Shown piece after piece: positions 1,908 to 19,816 of a stretch of DNA of 20,245 bases (its first letter is position 1; every line of letters starts with the position of its first letter). The stretch lies in IMG/VR virus record IMGVR_UViG_3300049734_000429, positions 1 through 20,245 of that record; one strand, 5' to 3'. A program made the translations under genes and the position numbers. Under the pieces are notes generated by a model. The model was not told where the DNA came from. It ran no database searches and saw only the letters and a list, made by a program, of their open reading frames with translations. This stretch comes from a virus.

Positions 1908-2795
1908 TTGCTCGAGCAATGCGACGCGTCGCCCGACGTCCTCACCGACGCGTCGAAGCTTGACGCGGGCGACGGCTCGCGGTACCCTCTCGACGTGAAG
2001 AAGTCGCTCACAGCTGCCGGCGACGCGTCGTGTCGATCGACCGGCGACGCGTCGCCAGGATCCCGATTCGACTCGCCCCCGGCCGAAGACGACGCGTCGC
2101 GGCAGGTCCTCGCCGACGCGTCGCCGAGCGATCGTTGTTGCGCGTGGTGCCGGGGTTCGATACCTGAGCGTGCCCGGGTCGATTCGATCTTCTGCTCGCG
2201 GCGGTGCCGGCAAGCCGCCTTCCGGATCCGTCGGCGACACCAGGTCGAGGAGCGTGAAGCGAAGCCGCTTCGCATGGCCTACGCCGATCCGCCCTACCCC
2301 GGCCTGGCGTGGATGTACCGCGATCAGCCGAGCTACGCCGGCGAAGTCGATCATGCGGCTCTGATCGCGTCGCTGGAGGCCTCCTACGACGGCTTCGCAC
2401 TGAGCACGTCTTCGAGGGCCCTGGCGACGCTTCTGCCGCTCTTAACCCAGCCCTACCACTTGTGCCCGTGGGTGAAGCCGATCGGGGCCGCGGGCACGAC
2501 GTTTGGCGTGCACAACACTTGGGAACCCTTGATCGTGGTGCCGGGCCGCGAGCTTCAACCGGGTAAGCGCGACTGGCTCCTGGCCCAGCCGGCGAGAGGG
2601 GGCGGAAGCGACTTGATCGGCCGCAAGCCCGAGGCGTTCGCGGTGTGGCTCTTCGAGCTGCTCGGCCTTCTTCCCGGTGACCAATTCGACGATCTCTATC
2701 CCGGCTCGGGGATCATCGGCCGGGCGTGGGCCGAGGTCTGCCGTCAGCGGAGCCGCTCGGCCAGGTCGTCAATCGCGGCCTCGGGCGTGGCGTGA
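1908..2795 (+). CDS. DPPY-type DNA methyltransferase with N-terminal repeat and Cys cluster
   Basis: 295 residues from TTG 1908, just after an in-frame TAG; GTG 1995 is an alternative start. Residues about 6-76 are an octapeptide repeat starting mostly with DAS. Residues 77-112 form a likely zinc-binding knuckle (C78-x2-C81, C96-x3-C100) ending in a basic helix, CRQAAFRIRRRH. The catalytic domain follows: DPPY at 127-130 (motif IV), then KPEAF, WLFELLG and DLYPGSG at 262-268 (motif I, SAM binding). Motif IV before motif I is the order of beta-class N6-adenine/N4-cytosine methyltransferases; similar enzymes occur in actinobacteria and phages. The gene opposes the structural operon, and its 3' end overlaps the 64-residue minus-strand gene antisense by 52 nt. 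It likely protects phage DNA from restriction or marks it. The target is unknown, and no cognate endonuclease is seen. Confidence 0.8.
   Translation: MLEQCDASPDVLTDASKLDAGDGSRYPLDVKKSLTAAGDASCRSTGDASPGSRFDSPPAEDDASRQVLADASPSDRCCAWCRGSIPERARVDSIFCSRRCRQAAFRIRRRHQVEEREAKPLRMAYADPPYPGLAWMYRDQPSYAGEVDHAALIASLEASYDGFALSTSSRALATLLPLLTQPYHLCPWVKPIGAAGTTFGVHNTWEPLIVVPGRELQPGKRDWLLAQPARGGGSDLIGRKPEAFAVWLFELLGLLPGDQFDDLYPGSGIIGRAWAEVCRQRSRSARSSIAASGVA
1923..2138 (+). repeat. 24-bp-period GACGCGTCG array inside methyltransferase gene
   Basis: GACGCGTCG occurs at 1923, 1947, 2022, 2046, 2091 and 2115: three pairs, each exactly 24 bp apart. A degenerate unit (GACGGCTCG) lies at 1971. The whole stretch reads as nine octapeptide units, with one unit a codon longer (1995) and one a codon shorter (2070). 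The core uses the same codons (gac gcg tcg) every time, while the 15 bp between cores varies. GACGCGTC is an 8-bp palindrome. The same core with 24-bp period recurs at 19151-19207. Confidence 0.85.
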
Positions 2796-9850: not shown

Positions 9851-10441
9851 TCAGCGGAGCTTTTCGAGGCGGAGCCGTCGCTCGCGGATCCGTGCGGCCT
9901 CGGCCCGCAAGCTGAGCACAGTGTCGGGGTAGGCCGGCGTCCCGGTAATAGTCACTTCGACCAGGTCCACCTCGAGCTGCTCGACCAGCGGGAACTTGTC
10001 GCCCGCGGCCGGTGAGTTCCAGCGATCGCGGCGGGTGCGGAAGCCGAACGAGCCGCCGCGAAACTTGCCGGCCCGCACGTCGGCCAGGAGCGCGTCGGCC
10101 TCGGGGGTCTGGGGCAGGTAGACCGAGGCGAAGAGGCCGCGGGCGTCTTCCTGCAAGAGCAGCCCGTTCGACCGCGTCGCGATCGTCCGGCCGGCGTCGT
10201 GTTCGACCCGGGCGTGTACGTCGAGGCCCTCGGCCAGCGTCCGCGTGAAGGCGCCCGGCCGGATGACTTCGACGAAGGTCTTCCCGTCTTCGTTGATCGG
10301 CAAACTCGGTCGATCGAAGACGGCCGGGTACCAGACGAGCCGGCGATCGCCGCGGACGCTCGGCGGGTCGCCCATGGCCCGGCAGACGATCGGCGGCTCA
10401 CTCGGCGGCGGCGTCGCCGTCCTCTTCCTCAGCGTCGTCAT
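9851..10441 (-). CDS. HK97-type prohead protease
   Basis: 196 residues from ATG 10441, overlapping the portal gene by 44 nt; ATG 10374, just after the portal stop, is an alternative. Family signatures: DRRLVWYPAVFD, KTFVEVIRPGAF, the catalytic His in ARVEHDAGRT, the catalytic Ser in RGGSFGFRT, and VEVTITGTPAYPDT at the end of the core. This serine protease (assemblin-like fold) assembles inside the prohead and removes the capsid delta domain before DNA packaging. It lies between portal and capsid, as in HK97. Confidence 0.9.
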   Translation of the reverse strand: MTTLRKRTATPPPSEPPIVCRAMGDPPSVRGDRRLVWYPAVFDRPSLPINEDGKTFVEVIRPGAFTRTLAEGLDVHARVEHDAGRTIATRSNGLLLQEDARGLFASVYLPQTPEADALLADVRAGKFRGGSFGFRTRRDRWNSPAAGDKFPLVEQLEVDLVEVTITGTPAYPDTVLSLRAEAARIRERRLRLEKLR

Positions 10442-11642
10442 CGGGCGGTTCCTTCGGTGGCGTTGCGGGGGCGGTGTTGAGTTGCACTCGCGGCTGGTCG
10501 AGGCCCGGCAGCTTCGGCAGGTTAAGCCAGCCGCGTTGCTCGTTCGGCGTAATGCTGCCGTTCTGAATGCCGATGTTCGCGACCGTGGCTTGTTGCATCG
10601 GGTCGCCGCGGAGCATAGCCTCGACTTCGAACTCGGCGTACTCGGCCGCGTCGACGCCGAAGACCTTGTGATTGATCTCCAGCTCGATCTTTTCCAGGAT
10701 CGGCCGCATCGATCGCGTATAGAGGGCCTGGTTGTCGGCGCCGAGGTTGCTGTAAGTGCCGCGCTGCAGATTGAAGAGTTGCAACGGCGAGAGGTTGAGC
10801 CAGCGCCCGCAATCGTCCACGCTCGCGGATAGCGCTTCGATGATCGCGGCATCCTCGGCGGTGATCTCGTTGAAGCGGACAAAGTCGCCGCCGTTGGACA
10901 GGATCGGCAGCCGGGCGGTGTTGTCGGCCCCGGCATACTCCTCCTTCCACCACTTCTTGATCACCTCGGCCCCGTCCTTTTCGAGAGCGCCCGGGTACTT
11001 GAGGTAGCCGCTCGGCCGCACGACGTTCTCGTAATAGGCCGTGCCCGATTCGAGCACGCGGCGGTGCAGGCCGAGCGACTCGCCGGCCAGGTCGAGCAGA
11101 CGCGTTCCGCGGATGCCGTCCCGCGAGTACAGGAAGAGGTGAACGACCTCGTTGTCGGGGTAGAACTGGACCGAGTTGTCGGCCTCGCGAATGAGGAAGC
11201 CCTTGTTCCACTCCTCGTCGATCACGACGTCCACCAGGGCCGCACACGGCACCGGGTAGAGGCCGAGCAGCCGCCCGCCCATCGACCAGCGAAGGACGGC
11301 TACGAAGTCCGATTCGAGGAAGAGCGCCCGGGCGAGCAGCTCGAAGAACACCGCCCGCGTCATCGCCGGGTTGGGCCGCTCGTGGAGCAGCGAGTAGGCC
11401 GGGTGCCGGCGGGCCCGTTCGCGGGAGTCGTTGTCGAGCCGCCGGTAGGTGACCAGCGGCAACGAGCCGATTACGGTCTGGTACAGCCGCACGCCGCACC
11501 AGAACGGCGAGAGCGAGAGCGCTTCCTCCTCGGTGTGCACGGCACCCGGCCGCGACGGGCCGAAGAAGCCCTCGGGCACACGGCTGAGCGGGAACCAGCG
11601 GATGAAGCGGCGGCGGAGCCAGCGGCGAAGACGGCCGAACAT
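10398..11642 (-). CDS. Portal protein, HK97 family
   Basis: 414 residues from ATG 11642. The portal forms the dodecameric ring at one capsid vertex through which DNA is packaged and ejected. Family features: a basic N-terminus (MFGRLRRWLRRRF), LSPFWCGVRLYQTVIGSLPL, HPAYSLLHERPNPAMTRAVF, a wing domain, a stem-like stretch with VDDCGRWLNLSPLQLFNLQ, and a tail beginning around LNTAPATPP followed by an acidic end (DDDAEEEDGD). The start is set by a TANATA box 5 nt upstream. The large terminase and portal genes are normally adjacent, but here a plus-strand methyltransferase cassette of about 0.9 kb separates them. Confidence 0.9.
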   Translation of the reverse strand: MFGRLRRWLRRRFIRWFPLSRVPEGFFGPSRPGAVHTEEEALSLSPFWCGVRLYQTVIGSLPLVTYRRLDNDSRERARRHPAYSLLHERPNPAMTRAVFFELLARALFLESDFVAVLRWSMGGRLLGLYPVPCAALVDVVIDEEWNKGFLIREADNSVQFYPDNEVVHLFLYSRDGIRGTRLLDLAGESLGLHRRVLESGTAYYENVVRPSGYLKYPGALEKDGAEVIKKWWKEEYAGADNTARLPILSNGGDFVRFNEITAEDAAIIEALSASVDDCGRWLNLSPLQLFNLQRGTYSNLGADNQALYTRSMRPILEKIELEINHKVFGVDAAEYAEFEVEAMLRGDPMQQATVANIGIQNGSITPNEQRGWLNLPKLPGLDQPRVQLNTAPATPPKEPPDDDAEEEDGDAAAE

Positions 11643-11647
11643 GCCGT

Positions 11648-11653
11648 TATGTA
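11648..11653 (-). promoter_or_regulatory. TANATA box before portal gene
   Basis: On the minus strand TACATA, then ACGGC, then ATG 11642. This box gives the portal gene its own promoter candidate downstream of the inserted methyltransferase. Confidence 0.45.
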
Positions 11654-11667
11654 GGAACCGAATTCTC

Positions 11668-11696
11668 TTGACGAGTCACCGCAGCGGTGTCACAAC
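11668..11696 (+). promoter_or_regulatory. Possible C5 methyltransferase promoter with palindrome in spacer
   Basis: TTGACG (11668-11673) resembles a -35 box; 17 nt later is CACAAC, a poor -10. The spacer holds the perfect odd palindrome CACCGCAGCGGTG (11677-11689), the same type as the units of the array at 19622-19816. C5 methyltransferase genes are often autoregulated, so this could be an operator. The promoter itself is weakly supported. Confidence 0.35.
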
Positions 11697-11816
11697 AGGA
11701 AGACGAAGGCCAGCGGCGATCGAGCAGTCACGGTTGCCGCTGCGGGGTCACGGCCTGGCCGAGTCACACATCGATGAGTCACACTCTCCAGGACCTGTCA
11801 CAGTGCGGTCAGTCAC
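11675..11816 (+). repeat. 5' cluster of eight GTCAC motifs
   Basis: GTCAC starts at 11675, 11689, 11727, 11747, 11763, 11778, 11797 and 11812, all on the plus strand; the reverse orientation GTGAC is absent. Spacing is irregular (14-38 bp). The copies fall in all three codon phases, so the repetition is at the DNA level. Confidence 0.8.
11767..11784 (+). repeat. 18-bp direct repeat, left copy
   Basis: CACATCGATGAGTCACAC, identical to 12592-12609. The ATG inside this copy is the proposed start of the C5 methyltransferase. Confidence 0.85.
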
Positions 11817-12700
11817 CCGAGCTAGTTCTGTCCCTTTTCCCGGGTGTTGACCTCCTTGGCCGAGCCTTTTCTGCCGTCGGGTATTCTGTTGTCGCCGGCC
11901 CCGACCTCCTCCTCGATCAGCTAATCGAGGAGTTCCACACTCCTGCGGGTAGGTTCGACGGGATAATCGGCGGACCGCCTTGCCAGCACTACTCCGACGC
12001 GAACCGCCAGCGGGTCACTGCTGAAGGAGATCGGCTGGTGTGCGAGTTTCTCCGCGTGGTTGATGAGGCCCGTCCGGTGTGGTGGCTGATGGAGAACGTC
12101 CGCAACGTGCCGCACGTGCGGTTACAGGGCTATAGCGTCCAGCGCCTCGACTGCACAGACTGGGAATTCGGTGGGCCTTCCGGGCGGCTCCGACATATCC
12201 AGTTCGGACACCGCGACGGCTGGATTATTCGCCCCCTGCGCACGAGAACCGAGCGGCCAGTCACACCGGTTCCGACCCTCACAACCGTCCCGGCCGGGGC
12301 CGATCGTTACAGTCGGCGATGTTCCAGGATGGGCCTTGCGCTGCCCCTGGTTCTAAGCTCGTTCACGACCGCGGCACGACGTCGGGTCATTGCAAACGGA
12401 GTCCCGTGGGGGATGGGCTTAGCGCTAGCCAGGTCGGTCACCAGCGCAGGACCTGTCACACCAAACGACTGCGTTTGCGGGTGCGGCCGTCGAGTCACAC
12501 CCCCGAGGTCGCACGCCAGCGACGCTTGCCGGCAACGAGCCTCGCGCTGCCGGCGGGGTCACAATCGAGTGTTGGAGTTCCCCCAGGGGGTCACATCGAT
12601 GAGTCACACCAGGAAGATCGCCGGCGTTGCCGGCGGGGCGGACGCGGCCGCGTCGGCCAGGGCGAAGGGCATGAGCAGCGCGATCGCGCCGTCGATGTGA
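11774..12700 (+). CDS. C5-cytosine DNA methyltransferase with C-terminal Cys cluster
   Basis: 308 residues from ATG 11774; the frame is open from GTG 11687, but the catalytic domain starts soon after the ATG. Motifs (numbered from the ATG): LSLFPGVDLLGRAF (motif I, about 19-32), IIGGPPCQ with catalytic Cys70 (IV), MENVRN 106-111 (VI), GRLRHIQFG (VIII) and RRVIANGVPWGMGLALARSV (X). The gap between VIII and X is about 60 residues, so the target recognition domain is very small. A Cys-rich module follows (CVCGCGRR, ASDACRQRASRCRR; about 233-261), a likely zinc knuckle. The last 33 residues are antisense to the 3' end of the large terminase gene, suggesting that insertion added a foreign tail. 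It probably modifies phage DNA against restriction. No partner nuclease is seen. Confidence 0.82.
   Translation: MSHTLQDLSQCGQSPELVLSLFPGVDLLGRAFSAVGYSVVAGPDLLLDQLIEEFHTPAGRFDGIIGGPPCQHYSDANRQRVTAEGDRLVCEFLRVVDEARPVWWLMENVRNVPHVRLQGYSVQRLDCTDWEFGGPSGRLRHIQFGHRDGWIIRPLRTRTERPVTPVPTLTTVPAGADRYSRRCSRMGLALPLVLSSFTTAARRRVIANGVPWGMGLALARSVTSAGPVTPNDCVCGCGRRVTPPRSHASDACRQRASRCRRGHNRVLEFPQGVTSMSHTRKIAGVAGGADAAASARAKGMSSAIAPSM
12437..12607 (+). repeat. 3' cluster of six GTCAC motifs
   Basis: GTCAC starts at 12437, 12455, 12494, 12558, 12590 and 12603; two isolated copies lie in the gene body (12014, 12260). Together with the 5' cluster this makes 16 same-strand copies in 933 bp, where chance would give about one. 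The cluster stops abruptly at the terminase stop codon. Confidence 0.8.
12592..12609 (+). repeat. 18-bp direct repeat, right copy
   Basis: CACATCGATGAGTCACAC, identical to 11767-11784. On the minus strand this copy contains the TGA stop of the large terminase. The two copies bracket the methyltransferase cassette. Confidence 0.85.
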
Positions 12701-14235: not shown

Positions 14236-14241
14236 TATCTA
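14236..14241 (-). promoter_or_regulatory. TANATA box before large terminase gene
   Basis: On the minus strand TAGATA, then CGGCCG, then ATG 14229. The TAG is the stop of the HNH gene. Confidence 0.45.
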
Positions 14242-14499
14242 CGGCCCGGCGTGCTCGGCCTGGTGACACTCGACGCACAACACCTCGACGTTGTCCGGCG
14301 AGCGGTTGAAGGGGTTCCGATCCTTGTGGTGCAGGTGGTAGCTCCACGCGTTCCCGCACCGCTGGCACAGTGGGAAGCGGCGGAGCAGGTCTTCCCGCTG
14401 CCGTTCGTGCTCGGTGCCGTACCCGCGCTCCGTCGTCGTTTTCCCTTTGGGCTTTGAGCACGTCGGCTTGATCGGTGGAAGTGAGGGGCCGGTCGGCAT
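14239..14499 (-). CDS. HNH endonuclease beside terminase
   Basis: 86 residues from ATG 14497-14499, sharing one base with the small terminase stop (TGATG). The HNH fold is clear: C45-x2-C48 and C75-x2-C78 form the structural zinc site, HLHHKDRNPFN (55-65) holds the catalytic His, and N70/VEVLCVECH completes the beta-beta-alpha-metal motif. HNH proteins encoded next to the terminase are common in HK97-type cos phages, where they work with the terminase in specific DNA end cleavage. That context makes a packaging role more likely than homing. Confidence 0.9.
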   Translation of the reverse strand: MPTGPSLPPIKPTCSKPKGKTTTERGYGTEHERQREDLLRRFPLCQRCGNAWSYHLHHKDRNPFNRSPDNVEVLCVECHQAEHAGP

Positions 14500-14928: not shown

Positions 14929-16800
14929 TCACCCGTTGCTCATCCACCAGACGCGGAACCGGGCGAGATGGTGGTAACCCTCTTCGGTGACCTCTTCGGC
15001 AGTCCCTGACCACAGAGCGCGGCGAACGACCTGCCCGCGGTATGCGTTGAGCACGTCGGTGAGTCGATCGGCGATCGTCTTCGCTTGCGCGTAGGTCTCG
15101 GCCAGGGCGTGGAACTCCACGTCACTCACAACCAGGTGGGGACCGGGGTCGAGTTGATCGATCGGCTCGCTGTCCGGGACCGAGTAGTAAACCCACGGTG
15201 TGGGGGCGTCGTCGTCTGGGACTTCCCCCGGGTAGATGCTCTCACCGACCAGGTCGGTGAGCGTGGAGTCGGTGCCGAGGGCTGCTCGAATGTCTTCCTG
15301 GATCGAGGTCACACCCTCGGGGCCGACGATGAGGACCTCGGGGAACGGCCGGCTCCACCAGACCGCGAACCGCACGACGTGGTGATAGCCCTCTTCTGTG
15401 AACTCCTCACTGCTCGCCGACCAGAGAGCCCGGCGGACGATGTCGCCGTGGAAGCCCTCAACGATCGTGTAGACGCGATCGAGGATCGACTTGGCTTGCC
15501 CGTAGGTCCCGGCCAGGGCGTGGAACTCGACCTCACTCCGGACGTCAAGGTCGCCGCCGTCGAGCTGGTCGAGAGGCGTGCTCTCGGTCACGGAGTAGTA
15601 GAGCCAGGGTTTCGGGGCGTCGTCGTCGGGCACTTCGCCGGGGTAGATGCGATCGCTCACGTCGCCGGCGAGCGTTGCGTCGGCCCCCAGTTCGGCACGT
15701 AGCTCTTCCTGGATCGACTCGAAGATCGAGGGGGTTTCACCGACAGCGTCGAGGTCGGCGATCGCGGAGAGGTCGGCACTCCCTGCACTGGTCCGGGCGC
15801 CGGAAGCTTCCAGCGTGGCAACCGCCGAGAGGTCGGCCGAGCCCTCGGCCGCGTCGGGATCGGGCGGGGCGTCGCCGGCAGCTTCCAGCGACGCTTCAGC
15901 GGTGAGGTCGGCGGCCCCTTCGCTCGCACGCTCGCCGGCAGCTTCAAGCGACGCCTCGGCGACCAGCTCCGCGGCCCCTTCGCTCGCACGCCCACCGGCA
16001 GCTTCGAGCGACGCCTCGGCGACCAGGTCAGCGGCCCCCTCACTCGGCCGACTGCCGACGGCTTCGAGCAAGGCCTCGGCGACCAGGTCAGCGAAGCCCT
16101 CAGCTTCCTCGCTTCCCGCGTCCCACTCGTCGAAGTCCAGCCCGTCACCCGCGTTGTAGATCGTGTTGAGGTCGGTCTCACTCTTGACGACGTTCCAAAA
16201 CGAGACTTCGTCGAGCAGTCCGTCGAGAGGTGTGCTGTTGGCTACCTCGAAAAGCCCCAACGCCACCGTTCCGACGGAGTTTGTCAGGCCATGGGCAAAC
16301 GATTCAGTATCGACCGTTCCGTTGACGTAGATCCTCAACTCGTTCGCATCGGGGTCATGCGAAGCTGCGACATAGTACCAGGTGTCAATCTCGATCTCGA
16401 CCGACGACAGGACCTGATCGAAATCCGACCCGTTCCAGTGCCCGGAAACGAATCTCAAATTGCCGCCGCTGTCGAGCTGTAGGAACGCGTCAACCGCTGC
16501 GCCGGTGCGTTTCGAGATGAGTTCTTGGGCCGCGCCTAGTGAGTTGAACCGAACCCAGCAAGCCCACGTTAGTGGAACGTCGCCGGTGTCGAATTCCGCG
16601 GAAGTGGATAGCAGGCCCGGATTCGCACCCGCGAATCCGCTCCCGGGAACGTAATTCGCCGCGTTGCCTATCTTTCCCGTGGCCGAGTCGGGGGGTGAGA
16701 ATGCTGCCTGTGTGAAGTCGTTGCTGCCGTGAGAGTCAGCCCGTGTGCCGGTAGACTCCTCAACCTTCAGGTGGGTAATGAGTCCGTCTTTGAGTGCCAC
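14929..16800 (-). CDS. LamG-like / repeat / tandem tail-terminator fusion protein
   Basis: 623 residues from GTG 16800, with GGGAGG 7 nt upstream, one of the few good Shine-Dalgarno sites here. Residues about 1-215 look like a LamG/concanavalin-type beta sandwich (TWACWVRFNSLG, WYYVAASHDPDANELRIYVN, LDGLLDEVSFWN). Residues about 234-355 are six copies of a 20-residue repeat of the type EGAADLVAEASLEAAGGRAS, some degenerate. Residues about 362-481 and 499-619 are two related copies of a DUF3168-type tail-completion domain, both with RIYPGEVPDDDAP or SIYPGEVPDDDAP, W-x-YYSV, VEFHALA-x-TY-x-QAK and VRRALWS. A tail terminator caps the tail tube and joins it to the head; its gene is missing from the usual place beside the major tail gene. 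The fusion suggests a neck ring carrying a LamG appendage, which is inference. Confidence 0.8.
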   Translation of the reverse strand: MALKDGLITHLKVEESTGTRADSHGSNDFTQAAFSPPDSATGKIGNAANYVPGSGFAGANPGLLSTSAEFDTGDVPLTWACWVRFNSLGAAQELISKRTGAAVDAFLQLDSGGNLRFVSGHWNGSDFDQVLSSVEIEIDTWYYVAASHDPDANELRIYVNGTVDTESFAHGLTNSVGTVALGLFEVANSTPLDGLLDEVSFWNVVKSETDLNTIYNAGDGLDFDEWDAGSEEAEGFADLVAEALLEAVGSRPSEGAADLVAEASLEAAGGRASEGAAELVAEASLEAAGERASEGAADLTAEASLEAAGDAPPDPDAAEGSADLSAVATLEASGARTSAGSADLSAIADLDAVGETPSIFESIQEELRAELGADATLAGDVSDRIYPGEVPDDDAPKPWLYYSVTESTPLDQLDGGDLDVRSEVEFHALAGTYGQAKSILDRVYTIVEGFHGDIVRRALWSASSEEFTEEGYHHVVRFAVWWSRPFPEVLIVGPEGVTSIQEDIRAALGTDSTLTDLVGESIYPGEVPDDDAPTPWVYYSVPDSEPIDQLDPGPHLVVSDVEFHALAETYAQAKTIADRLTDVLNAYRGQVVRRALWSGTAEEVTEEGYHHLARFRVWWMSNG

Positions 16801-19110: not shown

Positions 19111-19150
19111 CCCCCCTGCCCTTCCCCGACCGGCACGCGGATCCGCGGCC

Positions 19151-19207
19151 GACGCGTCGCCGTCAGCTGCAGGTTACGCGTCGCCGGCTCCCGGGCACTA
19201 TGCGTCG
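19151..19207 (+). repeat. Three 24-bp-period GACGCGTCG-type repeats
   Basis: GACGCGTCG (19151), TACGCGTCG (19175) and TATGCGTCG (19199) are exactly 24 bp apart, with unrelated 15-bp spacers. Core and period match the array in the DPPY methyltransferase gene 17 kb away. The third unit overlaps the stop codon of the 97-residue minus-strand gene. Confidence 0.75.
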
Positions 19208-19621: not shown

Positions 19622-19816
19622 CACCGCTAGCCGTACGCAAACCCACCGCAAGCGGTGAGAACCCCACGGCAGCGGAGCCAGGTCCACGGCAGCGGTGGGA
19701 ATTCACCGCTAGCGGAGCCCGGTCCACGGCAGCGGTGGGAATTCACCGCTAGCGGAGACGACCCCACCGCTAGCGGAGAAATCCCACCGCTAGCGGTGAG
19801 GGGTCCACAGCGGTGG
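19622..19816. repeat. Ten-unit array of ~20-bp-spaced palindromes
   Basis: Imperfect copies of CACCGCTAGCGGTG start near 19622, 19644, 19665, 19685, 19704, 19725, 19744, 19765, 19785 and 19806, with steps of 19-22 bp (about two helical turns). Variants are CACGGCAGCGGTG and CACCGCTAGCGGAG. A 37-bp block containing two units is repeated exactly at 19681-19717 and 19721-19757. The units are DNA palindromes separated by only 6-9 variable bases. Such arrays resemble iterons, partition sites or clustered operators. One more copy (CACCGCAGCGGTG) sits before the C5 methyltransferase at 11677. Confidence 0.85.

Follow-up and report, generated by a model that had tools for sequence, protein, structure and literature searches.

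Why does the gene for a phage DNA methyltransferase (MTase) open with a regularly spaced array of identical palindromes, and is it the DNA or the encoded peptide that is kept? The window analyzed here, 20,245 bases long, makes up an entire virus record; its genes include integrase, terminase, capsid, portal, and tail genes, a set that points to a phage of the temperate type, whole or fragmentary. Six copies of CGACGCGTCG lie at 1922, 1946, 2021, 2045, 2090, and 2114 (their cores, GACGCGTCG, begin at 1923, 1947, 2022, 2046, 2091, and 2115), forming three pairs, each pair exactly 24 bp apart, and all six are in the GAC-GCG-TCG frame of the open reading frame (ORF) at 1908-2795 (+); the array lies in the 5′ part of this zinc-finger and DPPY MTase gene (Table 1). 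Dinucleotide shuffles of the window gave an expectation of 0.45 copies of CGACGCGTCG (maximum 2), and synonymous-codon shuffles of the ORF gave a mean of 0.92, with six copies reached in 0 of 5000. Between the pairs lie degenerate units: a DGS unit, CGACGTG near 1993, and TTCGACTCG near 2069. The original prediction had described six identical cores in three pairs 24 bp apart, which the positions and the shuffles bear out; its count of nine 24-nt units is fair if one slip of +3 nt and one of −3 nt are allowed.

Table 1 Positions of the features of the window discussed in the text
Feature	Position	Strand	Basis or remark
Zinc-finger DPPY MTase ORF	1908..2795	+	TTG at 1908 is the first possible start, not necessarily the true start
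Array: six CGACGCGTCG palindromes and degenerate 24-nt units between them	1922..2123	.	Shuffles, codon test
Degenerate unit CGACGGCTCG (DGS)	1970..1979	+	Sequence
Zinc-finger-like segment C-x2-C-x14-C-x3-C-R-Q	2139..2225	+	(Nearly) invariant in alignment A2; HNH-family profile matches of some members
Beta-type amino-methyltransferase domain (DPPY 2286-2297, PGSG 2700-2711)	2262..2741	+	AlphaFold2 model, CcrM match
16 GTCAC, + strand only, before and within the C5 gene	11675..12607	+	GTSAC density in relatives
C5 cytosine methyltransferase ORF	11687..12700	+	PF00145 (E = 4.5e-12); phrog_116
C-terminal zinc-finger-like segment of the C5 enzyme, CVCGCGRRV...DACRQR	12470..12538	+	Sequence
Stray CGACGCGTCG (seventh copy, 19150) with a 2-mismatch partner 24 bp away	19150..19183	.	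Outside any MTase

The window protein runs from the array through the zinc-finger-like segment (C-x2-C, C-x3-CRQ) to the MTase domain. Its AlphaFold2 model (pLDDT 91.8) aligned in VIA-align with CcrM (6pbd: Z = 13.7, rmsd 3.1, 155 residues), M.BceJIV (8urk: Z = 13.5), and MboIIA (1g60: Z = 12.9), in a search that barely covered the finger part (residues 1-45) and leaves unlisted families possible. The modeled fold is Rossmann-like and identifies the protein as a methyltransferase but leaves its target base undecided, since N4-cytosine enzymes reach Z scores of 10.7-12.5 as well. DPPY ahead of the SAM-binding F/PxGxG (here PGSG) is the order of the beta class. The window enzyme has this order and the fold in common with CcrM, M.BceJIV, and M.MboIIA, which are beta-class N6-adenine MTases, but differs from them in its N-terminal zinc-finger-like segment and its embedded array. 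DPPY at residues 54-57 and P192, G193, and G195 of PGSG are invariant over 54 alignment rows. The window protein itself received no Pfam or NCBIfam name; Pfam D12 (PF02086, Dam-like N6-adenine MTase) matched eight of 54 members (best E = 3.3e-6), the window member not among them, and a PHROG DNA methyltransferase family matched 15 of 54, with two HNH families matching 7/54 and 2/54. A Pfam scan of the 16 distinct window proteins found no restriction enzyme, the only HNH gene being an HNH endonuclease gene that adjoins the terminase genes (14239-14499).

Relatives were collected independently of the array, by protein alignment searches and by peptide patterns around AYADPPY and GWALSTS. The set consists of 55 loci from GTDB genomes, the best 80 of at least 567 from IMG/VR, locus L013, and the window (137 sequences, 116 clusters at 85% identity, 809 kb of loci in total); the family shares descent, and the genes in the counts are not independent trials. 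Phages of different kinds, plasmids, and chromosomal contigs carry the MTase gene, and the same motif is found in Planctomycetota, Actinomycetota, Chloroflexota, and phage records. There are 110 copies of CGACGCGTCG in the 809 kb, 98 of them within the MTase ORF (taken from stop to stop, 12.6% of bases), where 87 are in the DAS frame and 11 in others; away from the MTase ORFs, zinc-finger loci have nine copies, near the 6.6 expected. In Curtobacterium phage Elener, the gene of gp27 (annotated as a hypothetical protein) contains four CGACGCGTCG, not all in the same frame, and the annotation of gp27 probably misses the zinc finger, because similarity begins upstream of the annotated start (L154, 6001-6801). 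Two plasmid copies are counter-cases: that of Pimelobacter, beside a relaxase gene, has neither CGACGCGTCG nor GACNNGTC inside the gene, and that of Miniimonas is frame-broken with none of the 10-mers. In L013 (3880-3935), an upstream neighbor of the MTase gene encodes GDASGG at its end, with the near-motif GCGACGCGTCT, just before the MTase.

The array goes with the zinc finger of the MTase. Two or more GACNNGTC occur in 52 of the 71 genes with a finger versus one of the 45 without, and GC content as a confounder of this link is ruled out, since at a GC of 60% or more the counts are still 51/67 versus 1/35. Placement could be scored in 58 of the 71 zinc-finger genes (13 were left out, their landmarks not being found). 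The sites avoid the catalytic core and fill linkers: 47 are N-terminal of the finger, one in the finger, eight in the linker, 40 in the loop before GxKP, 50 in the C-tail, and four in the 3′ flank, against none in 21 kb of catalytic core. By gene, 14 of the 58 have no site, seven have sites in the C-tail only, six N-terminally only, and six in the loop only. Up to nine sites are spread through the coding linkers of a gene, and the 83 spacings between neighbors peak at 24 bp (27/83), then at 30 bp (11), with 24/83 not being multiples of three. The array had been thought to be tied to the opening of the gene, which does not hold among the relatives, where sites also lie in the loop or C-tail and their positions vary.

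Codon usage speaks to whether the DNA itself is kept. Among the relatives, 101 of 119 DAS tripeptides are encoded by GAC-GCG-TCG, where codon use in the same ORFs predicts 12.6 (SD 3.3), and serine of DAS is never AGC or AGT (0/119) versus a background of about 27%; in 174 neighboring ORFs, GAC-GCG-TCG encodes only two of 23 DAS. Other D-x-S tripeptides have the same dyad (DTS as GAC-ACG-TCG in 23/33, DVS as GAC-GTG-TCG in 17/22); with P in the middle, CCG is used in 13/24, and the G form keeps the dyad in just 4/18. Because these other D-x-S forms retain the dyad, the motif is CGACNNGTCG and not just the originally predicted GACGCGTC. Further, the conserved peptide RRVD, in another frame, has CGA as its first codon in 20/23 (background 19%) and the full dyad in 11/23. 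Judged by such codon statistics, the repeated sites within one gene are kept at the DNA level, as the original prediction had proposed; DAS with mixed codons in homologs, the result by which that prediction would have fallen, was looked for and not found.

In the 71 zinc-finger genes, CGACNNGTCG occurs 172 times versus 25.4 (SD 3.9) in synonymous shuffles, whereas in the 45 genes without a finger it occurs twice versus 1.6. It ranks first among all 4-mer dyads with spacers of 0-8 in the 52 genes that have it. The other 19 of the 71 zinc-finger genes are without CGACNNGTCG, which counts against the explanation proposed below; their top dyad is CGACGTCG (15 versus 3.5). Across 13 pairs of relatives, identity was 85% in site columns (583/684), 64% in 14-nt flanks (904/1403), and 74% in the rest (8660/11656), site columns being counted if one member has the motif, which favors the sites somewhat. 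Outside the gene, GACNNGTC is below expectation at zinc-finger loci (134 versus 183.8) and at no-finger loci (51 versus 93.1); the deficit being alike with and without a finger, site avoidance gives no support, and avoidance or enrichment elsewhere is uninformative as a sign of methylation.

We also searched in the reverse direction, from the pattern to the gene. The exact 24-bp pair was found at six loci in IMG/VR, five in such MTase genes and the sixth in a record whose MTase, 15 kb distant, is decayed. Fifteen carrier genomes (about 112 Mb) contain 11 pairs, in five of the 15, and all 11 are inside MTase ORFs, with no sign in these genomes of a repeat dispersed genome-wide. Of 396 Actinomycetota genomes, the pair is present in the carrier G002 and absent from the 395 others; a control pattern matched once, in a genome other than G002; these genomes and the dinucleotide and synonymous shuffles rule out a chance origin of the array. 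With looser spacing (N11-24), 18 loci were found: seven in or at the tail of MTase genes, two in MTase-bearing records with the array elsewhere, and nine where profile A2 finds no MTase. L238 (4580-4690) and L241 (3160-3320) have seemingly true intergenic arrays in records, possibly incomplete, in which profile A2 found no MTase; L230 has an intergenic array as well. The L241 array adjoins a small-terminase-like gene, and in L236 (about 250-310) two CGACGCGTCG lie in the linker of a helix-turn-helix regulator gene, both gene types being judged by eye. The rest of the nine have two or three copies each and resemble chance occurrences. Given the intergenic arrays of L238 and L241 and the pair in L236, arrays are not confined to the MTase gene. 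The record G001 (L017/L018) has a decayed MTase copy and two further arrays (10090-10667, 25330-25505, and 35550-35690); the third array ends in sequence like the MTase start, and for this reason the MTase gene seems once to have been at several places in this record, its 35.5-kb array reading as a remnant of the gene itself.

A second MTase in the same prophage was also said to carry a private array, and this stands: the stretch 11600-12700, which holds the C5 gene, has 16 GTCAC and no GTGAC, whereas the window as a whole has 40 and 25. This motif was established on the window first; relatives, which a single query did not find and a two-row alignment did, were tested afterward. In 29 finger-bearing C5 loci (the window and GXT1010 included), the density of GTSAC is 10.05 per kb in and around the gene versus 1.85 elsewhere; in 22 C5 loci without a finger (matches over 550 bp, with 12 short ones left out), it is 2.51 versus 1.74 per kb. 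GTGAC-N27-GTCAC occurs 76 times in the gene regions of the 29 zinc-finger loci (L158-L187), and in Pseudoalteromonas phage GXT1010 GTCAC stands five times before the C5 start codon, at intervals of exactly 23 bp. G stands five bases before GTCAC in 83% of cases in the C5 gene regions, as in a larger composite site. Since a second, unrelated MTase family has its own array, the pairing of a modification gene with a cluster of sites, suggested from the window alone, does recur.

We propose that the array matters as DNA: its clustered palindromic CGACNNGTCG sites would be recognized by the zinc-finger MTase of the same gene, the finger, or finger and MTase domain together, binding several sites 22-30 bp apart. 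That the MTase itself reads the sites seems likely to us, because what carriers of different phyla have in common is the zinc-finger MTase. The enzyme would then probably methylate the adenine of GAC in the sites, a step for which the balance tips only slightly in favor. Sites could be placed in any linker of the gene that tolerates D-x-S peptides, and in-gene placement would let the sites accompany the enzyme from one phage, plasmid, or host to another. Negative feedback would be the likeliest output, in which enzyme that is bound to its own gene, or has methylated it, limits further expression; we hold feedback to be a serious possibility, short of probable. Taken whole, self-recognized sites with probable feedback on their own gene have in our judgment an even chance of being right. 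The repetition of the pattern in the unrelated C5 family supports this explanation; the intergenic arrays away from the gene, including those of L238 and L241, speak against it, and arrays only in the C-tail (seven genes) or only in the loop (six genes) fit a promoter operator poorly.

Feedback on the own gene would have the simplest known precedent. MTases that act on their own genes are described (PMC3978073): M.SsoII, which has an extra DNA-binding domain tethered by a flexible linker, binds its promoter, and a CfrBI site is in the −35 element. These restriction-modification systems resemble the one predicted here in that the MTase binds the DNA of its own gene or acts on it, but there the site is in the promoter, whereas the window family has up to nine sites in coding linkers and a zinc-finger-like domain.

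Another reading makes the array a mark like a pac, ori, or transfer site, whose methylated or enzyme-bound sites label the gene-carrying molecule for packaging, replication, or mobilization. Two systems are precedents for embedded sites with such other outputs: P1 pac, within pacA, with seven Dam hexamers (PMC10028697), and lambda ori, within O, with four iterons of 19 bp each and short spacers (PMC4488673). P1 pac is, like the array with its candidate sites, a cluster of methylatable sites inside the coding sequence of the handling protein, but it is cut by pacase and its sites are Dam GATC, whereas here the host gene is an MTase. Lambda ori has repeated binding sites embedded in the gene of the binding protein, as the array putatively does, but O is a replication initiator with its sites in one fixed place, whereas array positions vary between relatives. 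The free position of the array inside the gene would suit such a mark, as would the terminase-like neighbor of the L241 array and the plasmid copy next to a relaxase gene, although that copy is itself without GACNNGTC. We nevertheless consider a pac- or ori-like mark unlikely, given that the gene is on varied phages, plasmids, and chromosomal contigs and that pac and ori functions belong to the element rather than to this gene. Slightly less likely still is a short palindromic repeat that exists in its own right between phage genes and that the MTase gene has captured or carries along, MTase-less arrays being its free form or remnants. The intergenic arrays of L230, L238, and L241 are consistent with such a repeat, and so is G001, with its decayed MTase and two arrays elsewhere, one ending like an MTase start; however, the pairs in the carrier genomes do not spread beyond MTase ORFs, and in G001 the array at 35.5 kb looks like a relic of the MTase gene.

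That some other DNA-binding protein, of host or phage, binds the sites instead of the MTase appears improbable: the same motif is present in several phyla, in phages as well as chromosomal contigs, with the zinc-finger MTase as the common factor, and relatives without the finger lack the sites even at high GC (51/67 versus 1/35, above). By far the least probable is that the protein needs an octapeptide D-A-S linker and that the invariant codons reflect recent tandem duplication. Most in-ORF sites are indeed in the DAS frame (87/98), and two blocks of the window share 85% identity over 34 nt, but some sites lie in other frames or past stop codons, spacers have diverged more than sites, and some arrays are noncoding. 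A repeat at the peptide level is ruled out by the unmixed codons of DAS (101/119 with one triple, against 2/23 in neighboring ORFs).

If the enzyme reads the sites, the gene sequence would directly reveal its recognition motif, for two MTase families and for many uncultured phages; the arrays would also be ready-made test objects for self-control or self-marking of a mobile modification gene. The gene is, besides, an example of a coding region in which codon statistics can measure, across phyla, a second message at the DNA level. We tentatively suggest a class of "self-addressed" MTases, in which the beta-type amino and C5 families would each have acquired a short zinc finger of the CRQ/CRKR type and would each carry, within or next to the own gene, a private array of the DNA motif belonging to that finger, the enzyme working preferentially in cis on the encoding molecule (self-marking or self-limiting); on the sequence comparisons this is a possibility with the odds somewhat against it. 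A literature search outside subscription journals and preprints found no description of such arrays. GACNNGTC appears in one paper, which to judge from its title and the opening of its abstract concerns a Pseudomonas LysR-type regulator, and for CGACGCGTCG the titles among the matches listed were on other subjects.

Two further repeats of the window are of other kinds. A 60-bp tandem repeat (3.7 copies, 15872-16093) lies in the gene of a Laminin-G-like/tail completion protein, and 40- and 20-bp tandem repeats (19671-19798), whose consensus has the palindromic CCGCTAGCGG, lie between the integrase side and the end of the record.
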